Below, piece by piece: positions 5,039 through 24,150 of a stretch of 38,538 bases of DNA (positions are counted from its first letter, which is position 1; each line of letters starts with the position of its first letter). Source of the stretch: Arcobacteraceae bacterium (GTDB lineage Bacteria > Campylobacterota > Campylobacteria > Campylobacterales > Arcobacteraceae). The notes below the pieces were generated by a model. That model saw only the letters and a list, made by a program, of their open reading frames with translations, ran no database searches and was not told the origin of the DNA. The DNA lies in NCBI GenBank assembly GCA_028375605.1, contig JAONGR010000014.1, forward strand, positions 1 through 38,538, read 5' to 3'. The position numbers and the translations under genes are program-made.

Positions 5039-6001
5039 ATGAAAATACTTTTAAAAAAATTACTTTACTTATTAATGATGCTATTTATAATTTCTATAAT
5101 CTCTTTTATTGCAATTAATTTTGCACCAAATAGCTTTTTTGCAAGTGGTGATTTAAATCCAAATATAACAGAAGAATCCATTGCCCATTTAAAAGAAGTA
5201 TATGGACTGAATAAACCTTTGTATGTACAATTTTATGCATGGATTATAAATGTGATTCATTTAGACTTTGGAATTTCTTTTTCAAGTGGTGCAATGGTTA
5301 AAGATGAAATATTAAGTCGAATGCCTATTACGTTAATGATGAATATAATTAGTATGGTGTGTATTTTTTTATTGTCATTATATTTAGGAATTAAAGCGGC
5401 GTTAAATAAAGGGAGTATTTTAGATAGATGTATAGGTCAATTATCATTATTAAGTTTTTCTTTACCCTCTTTTTATCTAGCACTTTTAGGAGTGTTGCTT
5501 TTTGCTGTAAATAGTAATCTGTTACCTATATCAGGATTACATAGTAGTGATATAGAAGAGAATAGTTTAGAATATTATGTTGATACAGCTTGGCATTTAA
5601 TATTACCAGTGAGTATTATTATATTTGGAGGTATTGGTAGTCTTACTTTATATATTCGGTCTTTAACGTTAGAAATCCTTAAAAGTGATTACATCTTTTT
5701 TGCAAAGGCTAGAGGTTTAAAAGACAGCGATATCTTTAGATATTATATGTTGCCAAATTTGTATCCTCCTGTAATTACTCTTTTAGGATTGAGTTTACCT
5801 GGAATTATTGGGGGGAGTGTGATTTTAGAGACGATTTTTTCTATTGATGGGATGGGATTATTATTTTTTCAATCTGCACTAAGTAGAGATTATCCTGTCA
5901 TTATGGGTATTTTAATTATAGGTGCTTTTTTAACATTACTGGGGAATATTATTGCGGATTTAATTTTACTTAAATTAAATCCGAATTTTAAATTGAGTTA
6001 A
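5039..6001 (+). CDS. DppB/OppB-type ABC transporter permease
   Basis: Inner-membrane permease subunit of a peptide/nickel-type ABC importer. It has an N-terminal membrane helix (about 8-27), a periplasmic section with the family pattern around YGLNKPLYVQF, then about five more membrane helices. The cytoplasmic EAA loop that contacts the ATPase is visible as FAKARGLKDSDIFRYYMLPN. The 320-residue length is typical. No second permease, ATPase or binding protein is adjacent, so its partners must be encoded elsewhere. The gene converges with msrA and the two stop codons overlap over 5998-6001, leaving no room for a terminator. Substrate cannot be told from sequence. Confidence 0.85.
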   Translation: MKILLKKLLYLLMMLFIISIISFIAINFAPNSFFASGDLNPNITEESIAHLKEVYGLNKPLYVQFYAWIINVIHLDFGISFSSGAMVKDEILSRMPITLMMNIISMVCIFLLSLYLGIKAALNKGSILDRCIGQLSLLSFSLPSFYLALLGVLLFAVNSNLLPISGLHSSDIEENSLEYYVDTAWHLILPVSIIIFGGIGSLTLYIRSLTLEILKSDYIFFAKARGLKDSDIFRYYMLPNLYPPVITLLGLSLPGIIGGSVILETIFSIDGMGLLFFQSALSRDYPVIMGILIIGAFLTLLGNIIADLILLKLNPNFKLS

Positions 6002-6489
6002 AATTTTTTTGTATAGCTATGACAATATGGAGTTTTATTATGCACAAAATAATAGTCTTGGTGATAGTCTTCTGCTTCATAAAAAATAATATTTACATTA
6101 TCGATAAGTTTAGTAGCTATAAAATAACCTTTGTCTTCCAATATCTTTATCAAAGATTCTGAACACTCTTTTTCTTTTTCATCATTATAAAAAATTGCAC
6201 TTAAGTATTGGCTTCCTATATCAGGACCTTGTCCATTACTTTGAGTTGGATCGTGTATTTCAAAAAATAGTTTTGTAAGTTCTTCGAATGATACTATATC
6301 TGCATCATAATTTATTTGAACTACTTCTAAATGTCCAGTTGTACCACTACAAATATCTCTATATGTAGGGTTTTGTAGATGACCACCCATATATCCACTA
6401 ATAGCACTTTGTACACCTTCTAGTTTTTCGAAGTAGTATTCAACTCCCCAAAAACATCCACCTGCAAAATATGCACTCTTAATTCCCAT
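5998..6489 (-). CDS. msrA: peptide methionine sulfoxide reductase MsrA, start rebuilt by an insertion
   Basis: Reduces the S-epimer of methionine sulfoxide in proteins. The catalytic motif GCFWG is at residues 11-15 with Cys12, and total length (163) is normal. The first four residues (MGIK) are encoded inside an integrated element; from SAYFAGGCFWG on, the sequence is ancestral and lies in the left 34-bp repeat. ATG at 6489-6487 has an AAAGG about nine bases upstream, so the gene should still be translated, but from a new leader. It used to overlap the end of msrB, which is now about 2.1 kb away, so co-transcription with msrB is probably lost. Confidence 0.95.
   Translation of the reverse strand: MGIKSAYFAGGCFWGVEYYFEKLEGVQSAISGYMGGHLQNPTYRDICSGTTGHLEVVQINYDADIVSFEELTKLFFEIHDPTQSNGQGPDIGSQYLSAIFYNDEKEKECSESLIKILEDKGYFIATKLIDNVNIIFYEAEDYHQDYYFVHNKTPYCHSYTKKF
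6444..6477. repeat. left 34-bp direct repeat (attachment site)
   Basis: This stretch is identical base for base to 8591-8624. It codes for the SAYFAGGCFWG region of msrA. Identity stops abruptly on both sides: host msrA continues to the left and element sequence lies to the right. This is what site-specific integration leaves behind. Confidence 0.85.
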
Positions 6490-6567
6490 TGTTAAAGCCT
6501 TTGTTGAGTAGAGGGTTGTTTTCCAAAGTGATATAAAATATCCCTAAAAATGGGGTTTTTATTCATC

Positions 6568-6588
6568 TTGTATCCCTTTTTGTATCCC
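6568..6588. repeat. paired TTGTATCCC repeats, 12-bp period
   Basis: TTGTATCCC occurs at 6568-6576 and 6580-6588, exactly 12 bases apart, inside the left end of the element between msrA and the cargo gene. The spacing suggests a protein binding site, for example an accessory recombination site or an operator. Confidence 0.5.
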
Positions 6589-6606
6589 AAAAATTTATAT
6601 CTATGC

Positions 6607-6659
6607 ATCATTATAGATTATATGTACTTAAGTCATATTGAGTTTATATAAGTAATGAT
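6607..6659. repeat. nested inverted repeats downstream of the cargo gene
   Basis: Outer arms ATCATTA (6607-6613) and TAATGAT (6653-6659) enclose an inner near-palindrome at 6620-6638, ATATG-T-ACTT facing AAGTCATAT with one bulged base. It lies just beyond the stop codon of the minus-strand cargo gene. It may be a transcript end structure or a recombination/regulator site; there is no clear T run for an intrinsic terminator. Confidence 0.4.
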
Positions 6660-6679
6660 TTTATTAAACTTAGGAATAT

Positions 6680-7963
6680 TTATGCATATAAATCATCTGG
6701 CAAAATATTAATATTACTTTTTTGATAATCTATACTAAACCCTTGATTTTGAACCAAGGATTTAGTCTTATTTCTAAGCTGATTGTCAAGGTCTTGTATT
6801 TGATTCTGAATATAAGGATTTTGAATCTCTTGAATACTACTTATTTCATTATGATCTTTAATATTATTTATGAATTCTTCCTTATCCTTCATATACTCAA
6901 ACCTACTTCTTTCATTTTCTAAGTATAGTTGTGATTGTTTAAGCTTTGTGATGGCATTGTCTCTTTCGTGTTGAAGAATCTCAAGTTTTATTTTTTCTTG
7001 TTCAACTTTAGATTCTTCTTGTTGAATATGGAGTTTATGAAGATCATTGGCTCTATTTTCACTAGCAATTGTGCTATATAATGAAAGTCCACCTTCAAAA
7101 AGTCCTGAAATAGGACTATTTTCAGTTATTGACCTTAACTTTAATGATACTGCATTTTTTGCTTTTTTATTAATATGTGCTCTACATAATATTGTGGCTA
7201 CATTATTTTTGTTAATTACTGCTACAACAGGTCTTTGAATTGTTTTCATTAGTTTTTGAAAGTTATTAAAATATTCTTTATATATAGGACTATCAAAATC
7301 AGTGACATCCATTTTACTATTAATGATATTTTGTTTTATTCTTTCTATTTCTTTGTCATTTTTTGAATATAAATTAAACTCATTTTCAAAATTAGTTAAA
7401 ATTTGATTATATTGAATATTTTCTTTTTCTGTAAGTTTTGCCTTTTTTATTGACTCAGAAATGTTAATTTTTAATTTATCAATTAATACATTAAAACCAT
7501 TATTGAGATAGGCATCATAATATATGTGTAAAGTTTTAGCTGGTATTACTTTTGCATTTTCAGTTTTATTTAAAAACTCATAAAGTAATCTAAAATATTT
7601 AAAGAGTATATTCATTACAAATACATTTTTATTTGGCAATAAAGAATAGGGTTTTCCAATATAGTATAAATATTGTAAGTCTTTATCTAATAATGATAAA
7701 TATGATAGTTTAGAATAAGTTCTATCAAACTTAAAAGATTCATCAAAAATTATTATATTTTCAGGATTTATACCATTACTTAACGCTATTGCAATAGTAT
7801 TTAGTAATTCATTTTGATAATAGTAAGTATTTAATCTACCAATGAAATTAGATACTTGCCAGGGAGATAAGTCCTTGCATTTTTTTTGTTTAATTGCTAT
7901 TTGAACACGGTGTTTAGTGTCTTTAAAGTCATAATCATCAAAATTCTCATTCTCATTTGGCAT
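6680..7963 (-). CDS. unrecognised 427-residue protein carried by the element, coiled-coil C-terminus
   Basis: I do not recognise this protein. The N-terminal two thirds look globular and mostly helical, with patches such as SPWQVSNFIGRLNTYYYQN near 53-71 and a hydrophobic beta-like stretch RPVVAVINKNNVATILC near residues 244-260. A short glycine-containing segment (ISGLFEGGLSLYS) is followed by a long charged, heptad-like coiled coil over about residues 300-395 rich in Glu, Lys and Gln. No signal peptide or definite membrane helix is seen. ATG at 7963-7961 follows AAGGA. A TATACT box (7995-8000) and two TGTCACAAAA repeats lie upstream, suggesting regulated expression. It is the only intact gene of the element, so it is the likely cargo; defence, toxin or maintenance roles are speculation. 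Confidence 0.75.
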   Translation of the reverse strand: MPNENENFDDYDFKDTKHRVQIAIKQKKCKDLSPWQVSNFIGRLNTYYYQNELLNTIAIALSNGINPENIIIFDESFKFDRTYSKLSYLSLLDKDLQYLYYIGKPYSLLPNKNVFVMNILFKYFRLLYEFLNKTENAKVIPAKTLHIYYDAYLNNGFNVLIDKLKINISESIKKAKLTEKENIQYNQILTNFENEFNLYSKNDKEIERIKQNIINSKMDVTDFDSPIYKEYFNNFQKLMKTIQRPVVAVINKNNVATILCRAHINKKAKNAVSLKLRSITENSPISGLFEGGLSLYSTIASENRANDLHKLHIQQEESKVEQEKIKLEILQHERDNAITKLKQSQLYLENERSRFEYMKDKEEFINNIKDHNEISSIQEIQNPYIQNQIQDLDNQLRNKTKSLVQNQGFSIDYQKSNINILPDDLYA

Positions 7964-18214: not shown

Positions 18215-18355
18215 TTATTTTGTTGCATCATGTATTGCATCTTTTGTAGAGTCGTATGCATTTGATGAATCTTCCTTTATTCCATCCCACGTTGCACATC
18301 CACTATTTAACAAAGCAATTGTAATAATAGTTAATGATAATAAAATATTTTTCAT
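18215..18355 (-). CDS. entericidin-like small lipoprotein
   Basis: A 46-residue reading frame. A lysine-containing N-terminus and hydrophobic stretch (residues 4-16) lead to a lipobox-like LNSGC with Cys20 as the lipidation site. The rest (ATWDGIKEDSSNAYDSTKDA) has the short helical, Lys/Asp-rich pattern of entericidins and similar envelope lipoproteins. ATG at 18355-18353 has a very strong AAGGAGG ribosome binding site. It lies 19 bases downstream of leuA on the same strand. Its true role is unknown; entericidin A/B form a toxin/antidote pair, but only one member is present here. Confidence 0.8.
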   Translation of the reverse strand: MKNILLSLTIITIALLNSGCATWDGIKEDSSNAYDSTKDAIHDATK

Positions 18356-20058: not shown

Positions 20059-21357
20059 ATGACATTCAGACAACTAGGATTATGTCCCGAGATTGCAAAA
20101 GCTTGTGAAGATAAAGGTTATAAAGCACCAACTAAAATACAAGAAGATTCAATAGTACATCTTTTAAGAAAAAGAGACCTTTTGGCAATTGCACAAACAG
20201 GTACAGGTAAAACAGCTGCATTTGTATTACCACTATTACAAGATATAGAAAATCAACGAAAAGAACAAGATAACGATAATGTAATTTTAACAAAACTTAT
20301 CATCGCACCTACTCGTGAACTTGTATTACAACTAGAAAAAAGTATTGAGTCATATGCAAAATATTTAGATATTAAAATATGTAGTGTATATGGTGGAGCA
20401 AATATAAAGCCACAAATTAAAAAGCTTGAATCAAGAGTTCATATTGTTATTGCTACTACTGGTAGACTTATGGATTTAATTAGAAAAGAAAAAATAAATG
20501 TAACAAAAGTAGATGCACTTGTTTTAGATGAAGCAGATAGTATGCTTGATATGGGATTTGTTGCTGATATTCAAGATATATTAAAATCATTAACAATATT
20601 ACAGCAAACAATACTTTGTTCTGCAACTCTTGGACCAAATATCAAGAAACTATCTGGTCAAATAATGATTAATCCTAAAGTTATTGAGATTAAATCAAAT
20701 GATAGAGTAAATGATAGAATAGAACAAGTTGCTTATCCTGTTACTCTAGTAAAAAAACTTGAAATGCTTTCTTTTTTAATTGGAACAAAAAATATGAAAC
20801 AAGTACTTGTGTTTTGTAAAACAAAAGCGAGTGCTGAAGAGATAGTAAAAAACTTAAAACTTGATGGATTAAAAGCAGCTTCTATTCATGGAGATAAGAC
20901 ACATGGGGCAAGAACAAAAGCAATCACACAATTTAAAGAAAATCAAATAAGAGTTTTAGTAGCAACTGATGTAGCTGCTAGGGGACTAGATATAACAGAT
21001 TTATTTTATGTTATTAATTTTGATTTACCTTTTATGCCTATTGATTATGTTCATAGAATTGGTAGAACTGCACGAGCTGGTAAAAATGGTATCGCTATAT
21101 CTTTACTTGATGAATATGATGTTGCAACAATTAGAGAAGTTGAAAAATATCTAAATCAAAAAATTCCAAAGTTAGATCTTGATGGTTTTGAAGTTGGAAC
21201 AAGAATGAAAATGATTGCTACAAAAACTATTGTTGAAACTAAAGATGATATCAAAAGAAAAAAAACTGGTGGGGCATTTGGAAATAAAAAGAAAAATAAA
21301 GATAAAAAAACTGTTGCGAAACAACGTGGTAAAAGAATTATTGGTCAAAATAGATAA
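20059..21357 (+). CDS. DEAD-box RNA helicase
   Basis: ATP-dependent RNA unwinding enzyme. Motifs in order: Q motif (FRQLGL...PTKIQ), Walker A AQTGTGKT at 45-52, PTRELVLQ, TTGRLMD, DEAD at 157-160, SAT, and the second RecA domain with VATDVAARGLDI and HRIGRTARAGK. The C-terminal tail after about 385 is strongly basic, typical for RNA binding in RhlE-like proteins. Length 432. Start ATG is close to an AGAG-type ribosome binding site. The following lipoprotein gene begins eight bases later, so the helicase heads a run that ends in a two-component system. Likely role is RNA turnover or ribosome assembly. Confidence 0.92.
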   Translation: MTFRQLGLCPEIAKACEDKGYKAPTKIQEDSIVHLLRKRDLLAIAQTGTGKTAAFVLPLLQDIENQRKEQDNDNVILTKLIIAPTRELVLQLEKSIESYAKYLDIKICSVYGGANIKPQIKKLESRVHIVIATTGRLMDLIRKEKINVTKVDALVLDEADSMLDMGFVADIQDILKSLTILQQTILCSATLGPNIKKLSGQIMINPKVIEIKSNDRVNDRIEQVAYPVTLVKKLEMLSFLIGTKNMKQVLVFCKTKASAEEIVKNLKLDGLKAASIHGDKTHGARTKAITQFKENQIRVLVATDVAARGLDITDLFYVINFDLPFMPIDYVHRIGRTARAGKNGIAISLLDEYDVATIREVEKYLNQKIPKLDLDGFEVGTRMKMIATKTIVETKDDIKRKKTGGAFGNKKKNKDKKTVAKQRGKRIIGQNR

Positions 21358-21365
21358 TTAAACTA

Positions 21366-21806
21366 ATGATACTTAAAAAATATTCTCTTTATATAGTAAC
21401 ACTATTGGTTTTTTCTGGATGTTTTCCCCTGACAGAAAAAATCATTGATAAAAAACAACTAAAAATTCATACAGCTAAAAAAATAGAAAAAAAACCAAAT
21501 TATTGTATTGAATATGAAAAAAATATGAAATATTCTTCATCTTATATATTTAAAGAATTTAAAGAAGGATATTTTAATTCGAATGATTTTACTGGAGCTA
21601 AAGCACAACTTTTTTTAATTAAAAATAAATCTGAAAGTATATTTGCTCAAAATATAAATTCTGCAGAACAGTTTTATCAATCAAACTACAAAGTTGCAAA
21701 AAAGAAAAAATGTAATGTAGAAAAATATAGAATCTTTCCGTTAAAACAGATAGAAACACAAATAGAAAAAATGGATAAAAGTAGTGTTAAAACTACTTTA
21801 CAATAA
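21366..21806 (+). CDS. putative lipoprotein of unknown function
   Basis: A 146-residue protein with a hydrophobic N-terminus ending in LLVFSGC (Cys19), a slightly unusual lipobox with Phe at -3. The mature part is Lys-rich, with a pair of cysteines (NYCIEYE and KKCNVEKY) that could form a disulfide. I recognise no domain. The gene starts eight bases after the helicase and ends two bases before the next small secreted protein gene, so it sits in the same transcript. No good ribosome binding site is visible, which suggests translational coupling to the helicase. Confidence 0.7.
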   Translation: MILKKYSLYIVTLLVFSGCFPLTEKIIDKKQLKIHTAKKIEKKPNYCIEYEKNMKYSSSYIFKEFKEGYFNSNDFTGAKAQLFLIKNKSESIFAQNINSAEQFYQSNYKVAKKKKCNVEKYRIFPLKQIETQIEKMDKSSVKTTLQ

Positions 21807-21808
21807 AG

Positions 21809-22054
21809 ATGAAACAGTTTTTTTTTACAGTTAGTTTTTTAATTTTTTTTACTATGAATTTACAAGCGCAAAATTCAAATGTCGACATATTATTAGAAAA
21901 AGTACAAGAGGCAAAAACAAAAAAACAAAGAGATTCTCTAATATCTCAACTAAAATTGCAGTTGGCAAAGACTAATCAAAAAGCAAGAGAGGAATCAGAT
22001 GCTATTGTTAAAGCAAAAAAGAAACTCCCTTCAAAACTATTTAAAGTAAAATAA
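21809..22054 (+). CDS. small secreted helical protein upstream of a two-component system
   Basis: 81 residues with a clear signal peptide (cleavage likely after LQA at about 20). The mature part is a charged helix (ILLEKVQEAKTKKQRDSLI and on) ending in a Lys-rich tail, about 60 residues. Its stop codon shares a base with the start of the response regulator gene (TAATG). A protein of similar size and pattern is encoded just past the histidine kinase on the opposite strand. A role as a periplasmic partner or target of the two-component system is inferred. Confidence 0.75.
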   Translation: MKQFFFTVSFLIFFTMNLQAQNSNVDILLEKVQEAKTKKQRDSLISQLKLQLAKTNQKAREESDAIVKAKKKLPSKLFKVK

Positions 22055-22686
22055 TGAAAATATTACTTCTTGAAGATGATACTATTCTCTCCCAAACGAT
22101 GATACAAATACTTGAAGAGGAAAACTATGAGGTGATTTTAGTAGAAAATGGCGAGGAGGTCATTGAAGCTACTTACGACAATAAATTTGATTTGTATTTA
22201 TTTGATATTAATGTTCCTTTATTAAATGGTATGGAAACTTTAAAACTTTTAAGAGATGCTAATGATAATACACCTACTTTTTTTATTACATCCTTACGCG
22301 ATACAAGCTCTATCTTAGAAGGTTTTGACTGTGGTTGTGATGATTATATAAAAAAACCTTTTGATTTAGATGAGTTTTTAGCGAGAATAAAGGCTGTTTT
22401 AAAGAGGAAAAATCCAACTATAAAATATGGCGATATTGTATTTGATTTATATAATGATAGTATTTTAAAAAAAGGAGATGAGGTTTCTCTTGGAATCGTA
22501 GAAAAAGAGGTATTTAGATTACTCCTTACAAACATAGATGTTACTATTAATAAATCTACATTTTTTGACTACATGAATAAACCTAGTGATACTGCTTTAC
22601 GAGTTTTAATTAGTAAATTAAAAAAGCTGTTAGAACTCAACATTTTAAATACAAAAGGTGTAGGATATAAGCTTGAAAAACTATGA
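22054..22686 (+). CDS. OmpR-like response regulator
   Basis: Receiver domain (about 1-115) with acidic pocket Asp8/Asp9, phosphorylation site Asp51 in LFDINVP, the conserved hydroxyl in ITS and Lys in KKPF. The C-terminal part (about 125-210) is a winged-helix DNA-binding domain of the OmpR type, ending in GVGYKLEKL. At 210 residues it is somewhat shorter than most OmpR regulators. It overlaps the secreted protein gene by one base and the kinase gene by 14 bases, so these are tightly coupled. Confidence 0.92.
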   Translation: MKILLLEDDTILSQTMIQILEEENYEVILVENGEEVIEATYDNKFDLYLFDINVPLLNGMETLKLLRDANDNTPTFFITSLRDTSSILEGFDCGCDDYIKKPFDLDEFLARIKAVLKRKNPTIKYGDIVFDLYNDSILKKGDEVSLGIVEKEVFRLLLTNIDVTINKSTFFDYMNKPSDTALRVLISKLKKLLELNILNTKGVGYKLEKL

Positions 22687-23707
22687 AAAACAATCATTCT
22701 TTATAACACTTGCTTTATTTTTTATTCCTCTTTTTTTACTCTCTAGTGTAGTTCTTTACATGTATCATAATGAACAGATAAAAGATATAGAAAAAAATAT
22801 ACTTTATCAAATGAAAGATTATTCATACGATTTTAAAGGAGATACTTTTTCTTTGGATATAGTTGACAATGACATAAAGAAAGAAATTTTTAAAATATAT
22901 CATATCGATGGTGGTTTAGGCGCATATTTTCAAATCCCATCAAAAGGACCATATTTATTAAAAATAATTTATGAGAAAGACAAATACCAAAAACTTTATA
23001 ATGAATTTTCAAAAAAGATATTTATATTAGCTATTGTTATGTTTTTTTTAATTCTTGTTATTTCAGTAGGATTTGCTTTTTATTCTTTAAGACCAATAAG
23101 ACAAGCATTGCATCTGCTAGAGGAGTTTTTAAAAGATTTAATTCATGATTTAAATACTCCTGCAACATCAATCTTATTAAATACTAGATTGTTAAAAAAA
23201 CGTGGTGAATTTCCTGAGCTTGAACGTATTGAGATATCGGCAAAAGGGATTGCTTCTTTATATGAAAATTTAGAGTTAATGACCCCCTCTCATATTTCAA
23301 TAGATGAAAAAATTAATCTAGACGATTTGTTAGTTCAAAAAATAGAGCTACTTAAAAAAATTTATCCCAATATTATTTTTAACGTAAATGAAACTAAAAT
23401 AGAGATTGTAAGTAATAGTAATGCAATAGAGCGTATACTTGATAATTTATTAACTAATGCTTGTAAATATAATAAAAAAAATGGAGAGATTTTTGTTGGA
23501 TTAGATGGATCAAATCTAATTATAAAAGATACTGGAATAGGGATTAAGAATACAAGTAAAGTATTTCAACGATATTACAAAGAAAATGAAAGTGGAATGG
23601 GTATTGGAATGGATATTGTAAAACAGTTATGTGATATTTTGAAAATCACAATTAGAATAGAGAGTAAAATAGGGGTAGGAACTAGTATTAAGTTAGACTT
23701 TTCTTGA
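22673..23707 (+). CDS. sensor histidine kinase
   Basis: Two membrane helices (about 9-30 and 115-138) flank a periplasmic sensor of about 85 residues. The H box DLIHDLNTPATS has the phospho-acceptor His158, followed by a conventional ATPase domain: N box NLLTNACKYNKKNG, G1 DTGIGI and G2 GMGIGMDIVK. Only about 20 residues separate the second helix from His158, so there is no full HAMP linker. Length 344. The start is TTG at 22673 with AGGA seven bases upstream; a nearby ATG at 22683 is out of frame. It partners the preceding response regulator. Confidence 0.92.
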   Translation: MKNYEKQSFFITLALFFIPLFLLSSVVLYMYHNEQIKDIEKNILYQMKDYSYDFKGDTFSLDIVDNDIKKEIFKIYHIDGGLGAYFQIPSKGPYLLKIIYEKDKYQKLYNEFSKKIFILAIVMFFLILVISVGFAFYSLRPIRQALHLLEEFLKDLIHDLNTPATSILLNTRLLKKRGEFPELERIEISAKGIASLYENLELMTPSHISIDEKINLDDLLVQKIELLKKIYPNIIFNVNETKIEIVSNSNAIERILDNLLTNACKYNKKNGEIFVGLDGSNLIIKDTGIGIKNTSKVFQRYYKENESGMGIGMDIVKQLCDILKITIRIESKIGVGTSIKLDFS

Positions 23708-23716
23708 TTTAAAATA

Positions 23717-23753
23717 GCTGTAAAATAATTTAAGAAATAAATTATCTTACAGC
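23717..23753. terminator. hairpin between convergent genes
   Basis: Arms GCTGTAAAATAATTT (23717-23731) and AAATTATCTTACAGC (23739-23753) pair at 14 of 15 positions around a 7-base loop. It lies between the histidine kinase and the opposing small-protein gene. There is no clean T run after it, but its position makes a transcript-end role likely. Confidence 0.5.
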
Positions 23754-23785
23754 ATATTATGTGTATGAAGTATTTGTTATTACGT

Positions 23786-24016
23786 TTATTTTGCTTGTAA
23801 TAATTTTTTATCAATCATCTCTTGTGCTTTTATAACATCAAGTCTATTTAGTTTTTCAACTTCCTGATTAAGTTTAACCATTAATTCCTCTTTTGCTTCA
23901 AGCGCCTTAGTTTTATTGATTTTGTCTATCATTGTATTGATAGTATTTAAATCAGCTGATAATAAGCTAGTAGCTCCAATAATCGCAATCACAAGTAGTT
24001 TTTTTCTAATATTCAT
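23786..24016 (-). CDS. small secreted helical protein downstream of the two-component system
   Basis: 76 residues: a signal peptide (MNIRKKLLVIAIIGATSLLSA, cleavage near residue 21) and a charged helix of about 55 residues. It resembles the small protein encoded at 21809-22054 in size, in the register of its Leu/Ile and Lys/Glu residues (LLEKVQEAKTKKQRDSLI against MIDKINKTKALEAKEELM) and in its Lys-rich end. ATG at 24016 follows AAAGGA, with TATACT at 24044-24049 as possible -10. Its location facing the kinase gene suggests that it belongs to the same system, perhaps as target or feedback partner. Confidence 0.75.
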   Translation of the reverse strand: MNIRKKLLVIAIIGATSLLSADLNTINTMIDKINKTKALEAKEELMVKLNQEVEKLNRLDVIKAQEMIDKKLLQAK

Positions 24017-24150
24017 TTTATATCCTTTTTTTTAATGTATGGAAGTATATCAATGAAGCGTAAGTTAAGTGTGAGTTTGAATTTTGAGAAAAGAAACCTA
24101 AATAAATCAATCTTTTATTTAACTTAACCATACAATAATAACAATTTAGA

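Follow-up and report, generated by a model that had tools for sequence, protein, structure and literature searches.

We found that a gene cassette in the genome of an Arcobacteraceae bacterium probably encodes a two-component system that senses the envelope in the manner of CpxRA-CpxP/Spy, using protein families of its own; we put the probability of this reading at roughly 60%. As judged from the DNA, its firm parts are the genes themselves, their joint inheritance, the homology of the small proteins sA and sB, and a conserved operator. The cassette lies in a contig stretch of 38,538 nucleotides (hereafter the window), whose source genome is 62% complete, and comprises the following features.

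21366–21806, + strand: Lp, the first cassette gene, ORF for a 146-aa lipoprotein (lipobox FSGC)
21809–22054, + strand: sA, ORF for a small secreted helical protein of 81 aa (mature part ca. 61 aa, cleavage placed by eye)
22054–22686, + strand: OmpR-type response regulator (Pfam receiver and weak winged helix)
22673–23707, + strand: histidine kinase with TTG start and HDLNTP phospho-acceptor motif (Pfam, alignment, model)
23786–24016, − strand: sB, ORF for a small secreted helical protein of 76 aa (mature part ca. 55 aa), paralogue of sA by profile comparison
24023–24027, − strand: AAGGA ribosome-binding site of sB, read from the sequence
24044–24049, − strand: TATACT, −10 element of the sB promoter, conserved in sB promoters
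24056–24077, − strand: predicted operator, two 11-bp direct repeats AACTCACACTT AACTTACGCTT over the −35 region (matrix and pattern match)

Lp, sA, the regulator gene, and the kinase gene run head to tail on the + strand in that order, adjacent genes overlapping or separated by only a few bases. The first-pass annotation had described two small ORFs with mature helices of about 55–60 residues flanking the regulator and kinase, the first coupled to the regulator by TAATG and the second facing the kinase from its own promoter. All of this was confirmed: the two ORFs were found with mature parts of ca. 61 and 55 aa, the sA stop codon overlaps the regulator start within TAATG at 22052–22056, sB and the kinase gene are convergent with 78 bp between their stop codons, and sB is preceded by the conserved operator, TATACT, and AAGGA. 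The Lp gene starts 8 bases past the stop codon of a DEAD-box helicase gene (window 21357–21366) with no operator upstream, and the operon may therefore use the helicase promoter in this genome. A matrix scan of the window detected no operator in front of the Lp–sA–regulator–kinase operon, and autoregulation is therefore not evident here, which weighs against the main reading. Elsewhere in the window, a 46-aa lipoprotein-like ORF (18215–18355, − strand; lipobox NSGC), entericidin-like by eye and without a Pfam match, sits between genes that we named by eye as potassium-channel-like and 2-isopropylmalate synthase-like.

The regulator matched the Pfam receiver domain with 84.5 bits and a winged helix weakly (17.8 bits, under the Pfam cut-off), and its full-length matches to NCBIfam regulator models were all below cut-off. 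The kinase matched HATPase with 58.5 bits and HisKA with 24.4 bits, just below cut-off, and had no HAMP match in Pfam at E 10. It starts at TTG 22673, and in the alignment a start MKNYEKxS is common to close relatives. In the structural model, the sensor region is small and beta and lies between two membrane helices. The fold match of the whole kinase, whose sensor part was not folded separately, covered the catalytic part only (8g3a chain D, BceAB-S; Z 21.5, rmsd 3.5, 227 aligned).

Among 104 Arcobacteraceae genomes, the kinase (at least 50% identity), sA, and Lp occurred in an identical set of 22 and never apart, and sB was present in 21 of these 22, being absent in G005. No cassette part exceeded the score gap in the other 82 genomes. 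The gaps were set after viewing the lists: at least 359 against a next value of 258 for the kinase, 78 against 47 bits for sA, 73 against 44 for sB (best copy per genome), and at least 146 against 24.6 bits for Lp. sB converges on the kinase gene in 21/21 genomes, within 11–112 bp in 20 of them and at 876 bp in G090. At its edges, the cassette has two or three copies of sB in several genomes; G110 has one additional, unlinked sB-like copy, and a copy in G071 lies on C7 at a contig end. These results indicate, at the level of gene content, that Lp, sA, the regulator, the kinase, and sB are inherited as a unit. The co-occurrence of the small proteins with the regulator and kinase genes that the annotation had anticipated is thus strict, and its suggestion that the upstream lipoprotein belongs to the module agrees with the presence of Lp in 22/22 cassette genomes.

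The similarity of sA and sB was not visible in pairwise BLAST (E 0.075). In contrast, hhalign comparison of the full-length alignments gave 97.2% (E 3e-11), and that of the mature parts only (17 sA and 21 sB) gave 96.9% (E 1.4e-10) with a score of 54.4, compared with 13.0 for the best of 60 column shuffles and 9.4 for a reversed profile. The sA model retrieved sB proteins and vice versa, and comparison with the small proteins of other kinase-linked loci yielded 96.0 for sA and 95.1 for sB. For these alignments, identical proteins were removed, distant small proteins had to exceed 14 bits and 70 aa, some small-protein starts were shifted to an inner Met, and signal peptides and cleavage sites were assessed by eye. 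Mature sA and sB are therefore homologous by profile, far above chance, that is, paralogues, as had been proposed.

sA and sB had no match to PF07813 (LTXXQ) at E 10 and none to PF06518 (DUF1104) in Pfam, and neither these two nor Lp had a credible family in Pfam or NCBIfam. A Leptospira model (E 0.001; 18.6 bits where the cut-off is 400) and LolA3_fam (E 0.013) were considered as family names and judged chance matches, as were the matches to sequences of solved structures, which were coiled-coil-like only. The AlphaFold2 model of sA is a helical hairpin (helices 2–34 and 38–72; pLDDT 79.5, pTM 0.50). Fold searches with it gave nothing significant, the best Foldseek match being Skp at E 0.64, which weighs against the main reading. 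The best VIA match of sA had Z 6.8 (rmsd 2.1, 70 aligned), and the absence of Spy and CpxP from that list is uninformative. The Skp and VIA matches were both rejected as lying within the chance range of helical hairpins.

Upstream of sB, the same tandem repeat was first seen in the window and five relatives. This operator consists of AACTWACACTT twice, ahead of TATACT or TATAAT at fixed spacing, with the start codon ca. 40 nt on. We compared 33 upstream regions (31 of sB and 2 of sA): the operator was present in 30 of the 31 sB regions, and the sole exception was a second gene behind a small secreted gene that itself carries the operator. A matrix of 30 bits was built from 31 of the 33 regions, excluding the sB that is second in its operon (L045) and one of the two sA regions (L040). 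In the window, 24056–24077 was the only matrix match of at least 10, and it was the only site with at most one mismatch in its own genome. At the same stringency, 26 genomes gave 30 sites in 21 of them, namely in 21 of the 22 with the cassette and in none of the 4 without it; a reversed-pattern control gave no sites in all 26. Of these sites, 27 lay near the cassette and two (in G016 and G071) away from it; a further one, on contig 15 of G021, was left unassigned. G111 was the lone cassette genome without a site, and in G005, which has the cassette without sB, the operator precedes a different secreted protein of 67 aa. These results indicate, from comparison of promoters, a conserved operator in front of sB, and the description of sB as the regulated paralogue is backed to the extent that such regulation can be predicted from it. 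OmpR-type regulators commonly bind an 11-bp direct repeat over the −35 region, and the cassette regulator would bind this one.

At L198 (1501–1640) and L199 (G016:C1:488575 and G071:C6:40040), the operator and a −10 element have no ORF behind them. Downstream of the operator copy come a GCTAAAGCC...GGCTTTAGC hairpin and a run rich in T, which may mark a small RNA of the same regulator or just the terminator of a converging regulator gene.

Each genome encodes dozens of regulators (51 receiver matches in the genome of the window), any of which might own the operator while the adjoining kinase–regulator pair controls something else. In the 26 genomes except G111, however, the operator and the pair go together, either both there or both missing, and elsewhere the operator tracks the kinase family and not the loci of other regulators, where it was found in 0/8 cases in the own genome and 1/19 in relatives. 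We therefore regard assignment of the operator to another regulator as very improbable.

The wider sample for this comparison was the best 80 of 335 kinase relatives from a contig scan, of which 13 (L039–L051) belong to the cassette lineage or are near it and 67 are others. Two of the 13, L045 and L040, come from the marine relatives Poseidonibacter lekithochrous and Sulfurospirillum arcachonense, which are in culture and carry the cassette. The operator was present in 12 of the 13 and in 33 of the 67. With a matrix trained on the cassette lineage only, the 67 distant loci (505 kb) gave 48 matches of at least 14, compared with 4, 4, and 3 in Markov copies; kinase family and operator are thus paired beyond the cassette lineage as well. 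By eye, 38 of the 48 precede ORFs with a secreted-protein or lipoprotein start; two precede the regulator gene itself, one a membrane protein, and one a non-secreted protein, and six have no ORF. The remaining 34 of the 67 distant loci, again among the best 80 of 335, had no operator match, which weighs against the main reading; these absences are due partly to contig ends and partly to true losses, e.g., in the Sulfurovum branch. A short order-wide pattern, for which 30 loci were read on both strands, was unspecific (298 genomes gave 47 sites, and 30 when the pattern was reversed as a control), which also weighs against the main reading; it is too short to be specific, and we therefore relied on the matrix test near kinases. 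In a kinase tree of 79 rows, the sA/sB loci formed one group (support 100/99), and the label of related small protein needed 7 changes compared with 25 in shuffles, the label "none" including loci whose small protein scored below threshold.

The operator lies before the regulator gene itself in L053 (3328) and L062 (2086) and before another regulator gene in L234 and L235, which suggests autoregulation in some lineages. In L065 it precedes a 532-aa membrane protein (5108–6706), which we presume to resemble a lipid A phosphoethanolamine transferase.

Many of the operator-driven secreted proteins share with sA and sB the core I..qI..iQ.AP..ERV.LMN.FK..L..MN...R..AI..M. Others belong to different families. 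L236 has a regulator, a kinase, and the operator in a row, and next in line an LTXXQ protein that scores 46.1 bits (cut-off 24.3). A DUF1104 protein stands behind the operator in L217 (25.2 bits, cut-off 25), those of L059 and L081 are just below cut-off, and that of L054 (27.5 bits) adjoins a kinase relative with no operator match. Secreted DUF2202 proteins are found behind the operator in L099 (2128–3336) and L216 (808–1455). Sulfurimonas-type loci have a small gene, then a protein of ca. 280 aa with a thrombospondin-3-like motif, then the regulator and kinase. The latter protein belongs to a secreted family of 250–290 aa with one thrombospondin type 3-like motif and a remainder that is beta-rich by eye (L068 1788–2669, L099 5432–6253, L105 5480–6250, L117 5500–6318, and L110 1949–2713); PF02412 was below cut-off in the two members scanned. 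Its members separate the small helical protein from the regulator, or come directly after it, in Campylobacterota and one Aquificota contig.

That the operator precedes several unrelated secreted families would also be expected if sA and sB were structural or secreted effectors, such as outer-membrane vesicle cargo or surface peptides, that are regulated and have no sensing role. DUF1104 proteins are described as occurring in H. pylori vesicles (PMC11394524). However, all 22 cassettes have kept sA, its gene overlaps that of the regulator, and in the window no operator precedes it; these features fit a signalling partner better than a regulated effector, and we consider the effector explanation unlikely.

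The relatives sharing the sA/sB core add Met/His-rich or Gly-rich tails, and related small proteins of Sulfurimonas and others contain 8.9% Met and 4.8% His (37 proteins). Together with weak, sub-cut-off matches of some operator-driven proteins to PF13801 (Metal_resist), the Met/His-rich tails would suit metal sensing as in ZraSR-ZraP or CnrX, in which the small proteins would bind copper or zinc and report to the kinase. In the window, by contrast, mature sA contains no Met, His, or Cys, which makes metal sensing less likely here, and mature sB contains three Met, no His, and no Cys. Additionally, the cassette has no metal pump or oxidase gene, and its regulator belongs to the OmpR type, whereas that of ZraSR is NtrC-type. 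Metal sensing is thus a quite unlikely account of this cassette.

Under the preferred reading of a CpxP-like envelope sensor, Lp, sA, the regulator, and the kinase would be made from one operon, and sA would be a resident periplasmic partner that holds or loads the kinase. Periplasmic or outer-membrane stress would change the contact between sA and the kinase, and the kinase would phosphorylate the regulator. Binding of the regulator to both 11-bp repeats at the −35 region would then switch on sB, which would be made only while the regulator is active. We infer the binding and activation by the regulator, the periplasmic site of sA and sB, their contact with the kinase, and the stress signal from the arrangement of the cassette. 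As the output, sB may be a small helical periplasmic binder or chaperone that treats damage. Since it is the paralogue of sA, sB is probably also a feedback component, resetting the kinase by competing with sA or by mopping up the inducer; with two paralogues, a CpxP-like circuit is the simplest.

A broader proposal is tentative, and we give it somewhat less than even odds. Campylobacterota might share a phylum-wide envelope regulon consisting of one kinase–regulator lineage, a CTAACACTT-N2-CTAACACT operator, and interchangeable small periplasmic helical outputs (sA/sB type, DUF1104, and LTXXQ). In Arcobacteraceae, it would have been reduced to an almost closed loop with a single target: sB would be a copy of the co-translated partner of the kinase, and this output would at the same time serve as the ligand resetting the sensor.

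There seem to be few descriptions of how Campylobacterota control envelope stress. Among the papers listed on DUF1104, CpxP/Spy/LTXXQ, and Arcobacter envelope stress, mostly outside subscription journals, we found no account of this cassette and no such two-component system for Campylobacterota; the Arcobacter work includes ECF sigma factors. The same operator before other small secreted proteins in relatives suggests an unstudied route of envelope monitoring. A dedicated operator with a family of small outputs would give the envelope stress field a testable marker and tie unnamed families (sA/sB, DUF1104, and DUF2202) to one regulator lineage, and the cassette, with its two paralogues, would be a compact model in which to ask how kinases are tuned by accessory proteins.

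Several known systems resemble the cassette in part. In ZraSR-ZraP and CnrX, a small helical periplasmic accessory protein accompanies the system; sA differs in having no metal-binding residues, and the regulator class differs from the NtrC type of ZraSR. CrdRS-CrdA of Helicobacter pylori, from the same phylum, has a regulated periplasmic protein, and the Met/His-rich tails in relatives raised CrdA as a possible identity. CrdA is modelled on CopC/PcoC and carries the Met-rich copper motif MMXEMPGMXXMXEM (PMC9182242); sA and sB are helical and lack this motif, and because CrdA is described there as CopC-like, this identity was rejected. DUF1104 (PF06518) proteins share with sB the position of a small secreted protein behind the operator in relatives, but sA and sB do not match PF06518.

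The resemblance to CpxRA-CpxP/Spy of E. coli lies in an OmpR-type regulator and a membrane kinase encoded together and in a small periplasmic helical protein behind the promoter of the regulator, a relation predicted here. The first-pass annotation regarded the small proteins as unrelated in sequence to CpxP, and indeed sA and sB lack an LTXXQ match, which counts against the main reading, yet a true LTXXQ (PF07813) protein occupies that place in L236. CpxA has a HAMP linker, whereas the cassette kinase has no HAMP match, which weighs against the main reading. Unlike CpxRA-CpxP/Spy, the cassette has two paralogues, one of them co-translated with the regulator, and an extra lipoprotein. E. coli CpxP binds CpxA and is displaced by salt or misfolded pilin (PMC4160245).

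The nearest studied system, likened by description, may be DccRS of Campylobacter jejuni, encoded by Cj1223c–Cj1222c, which comes from the same phylum and has an OmpR-like regulator. Its operator is reportedly a direct repeat with an 11-bp period over the −35 region, WTTCAC-N6-TTCACW; this form is matched at sB, with a different consensus. The targets of DccRS are scattered, whereas the target here adjoins the kinase gene. The DccRS regulator raises putative periplasmic and membrane proteins (PMC9449129, PMC7118207).
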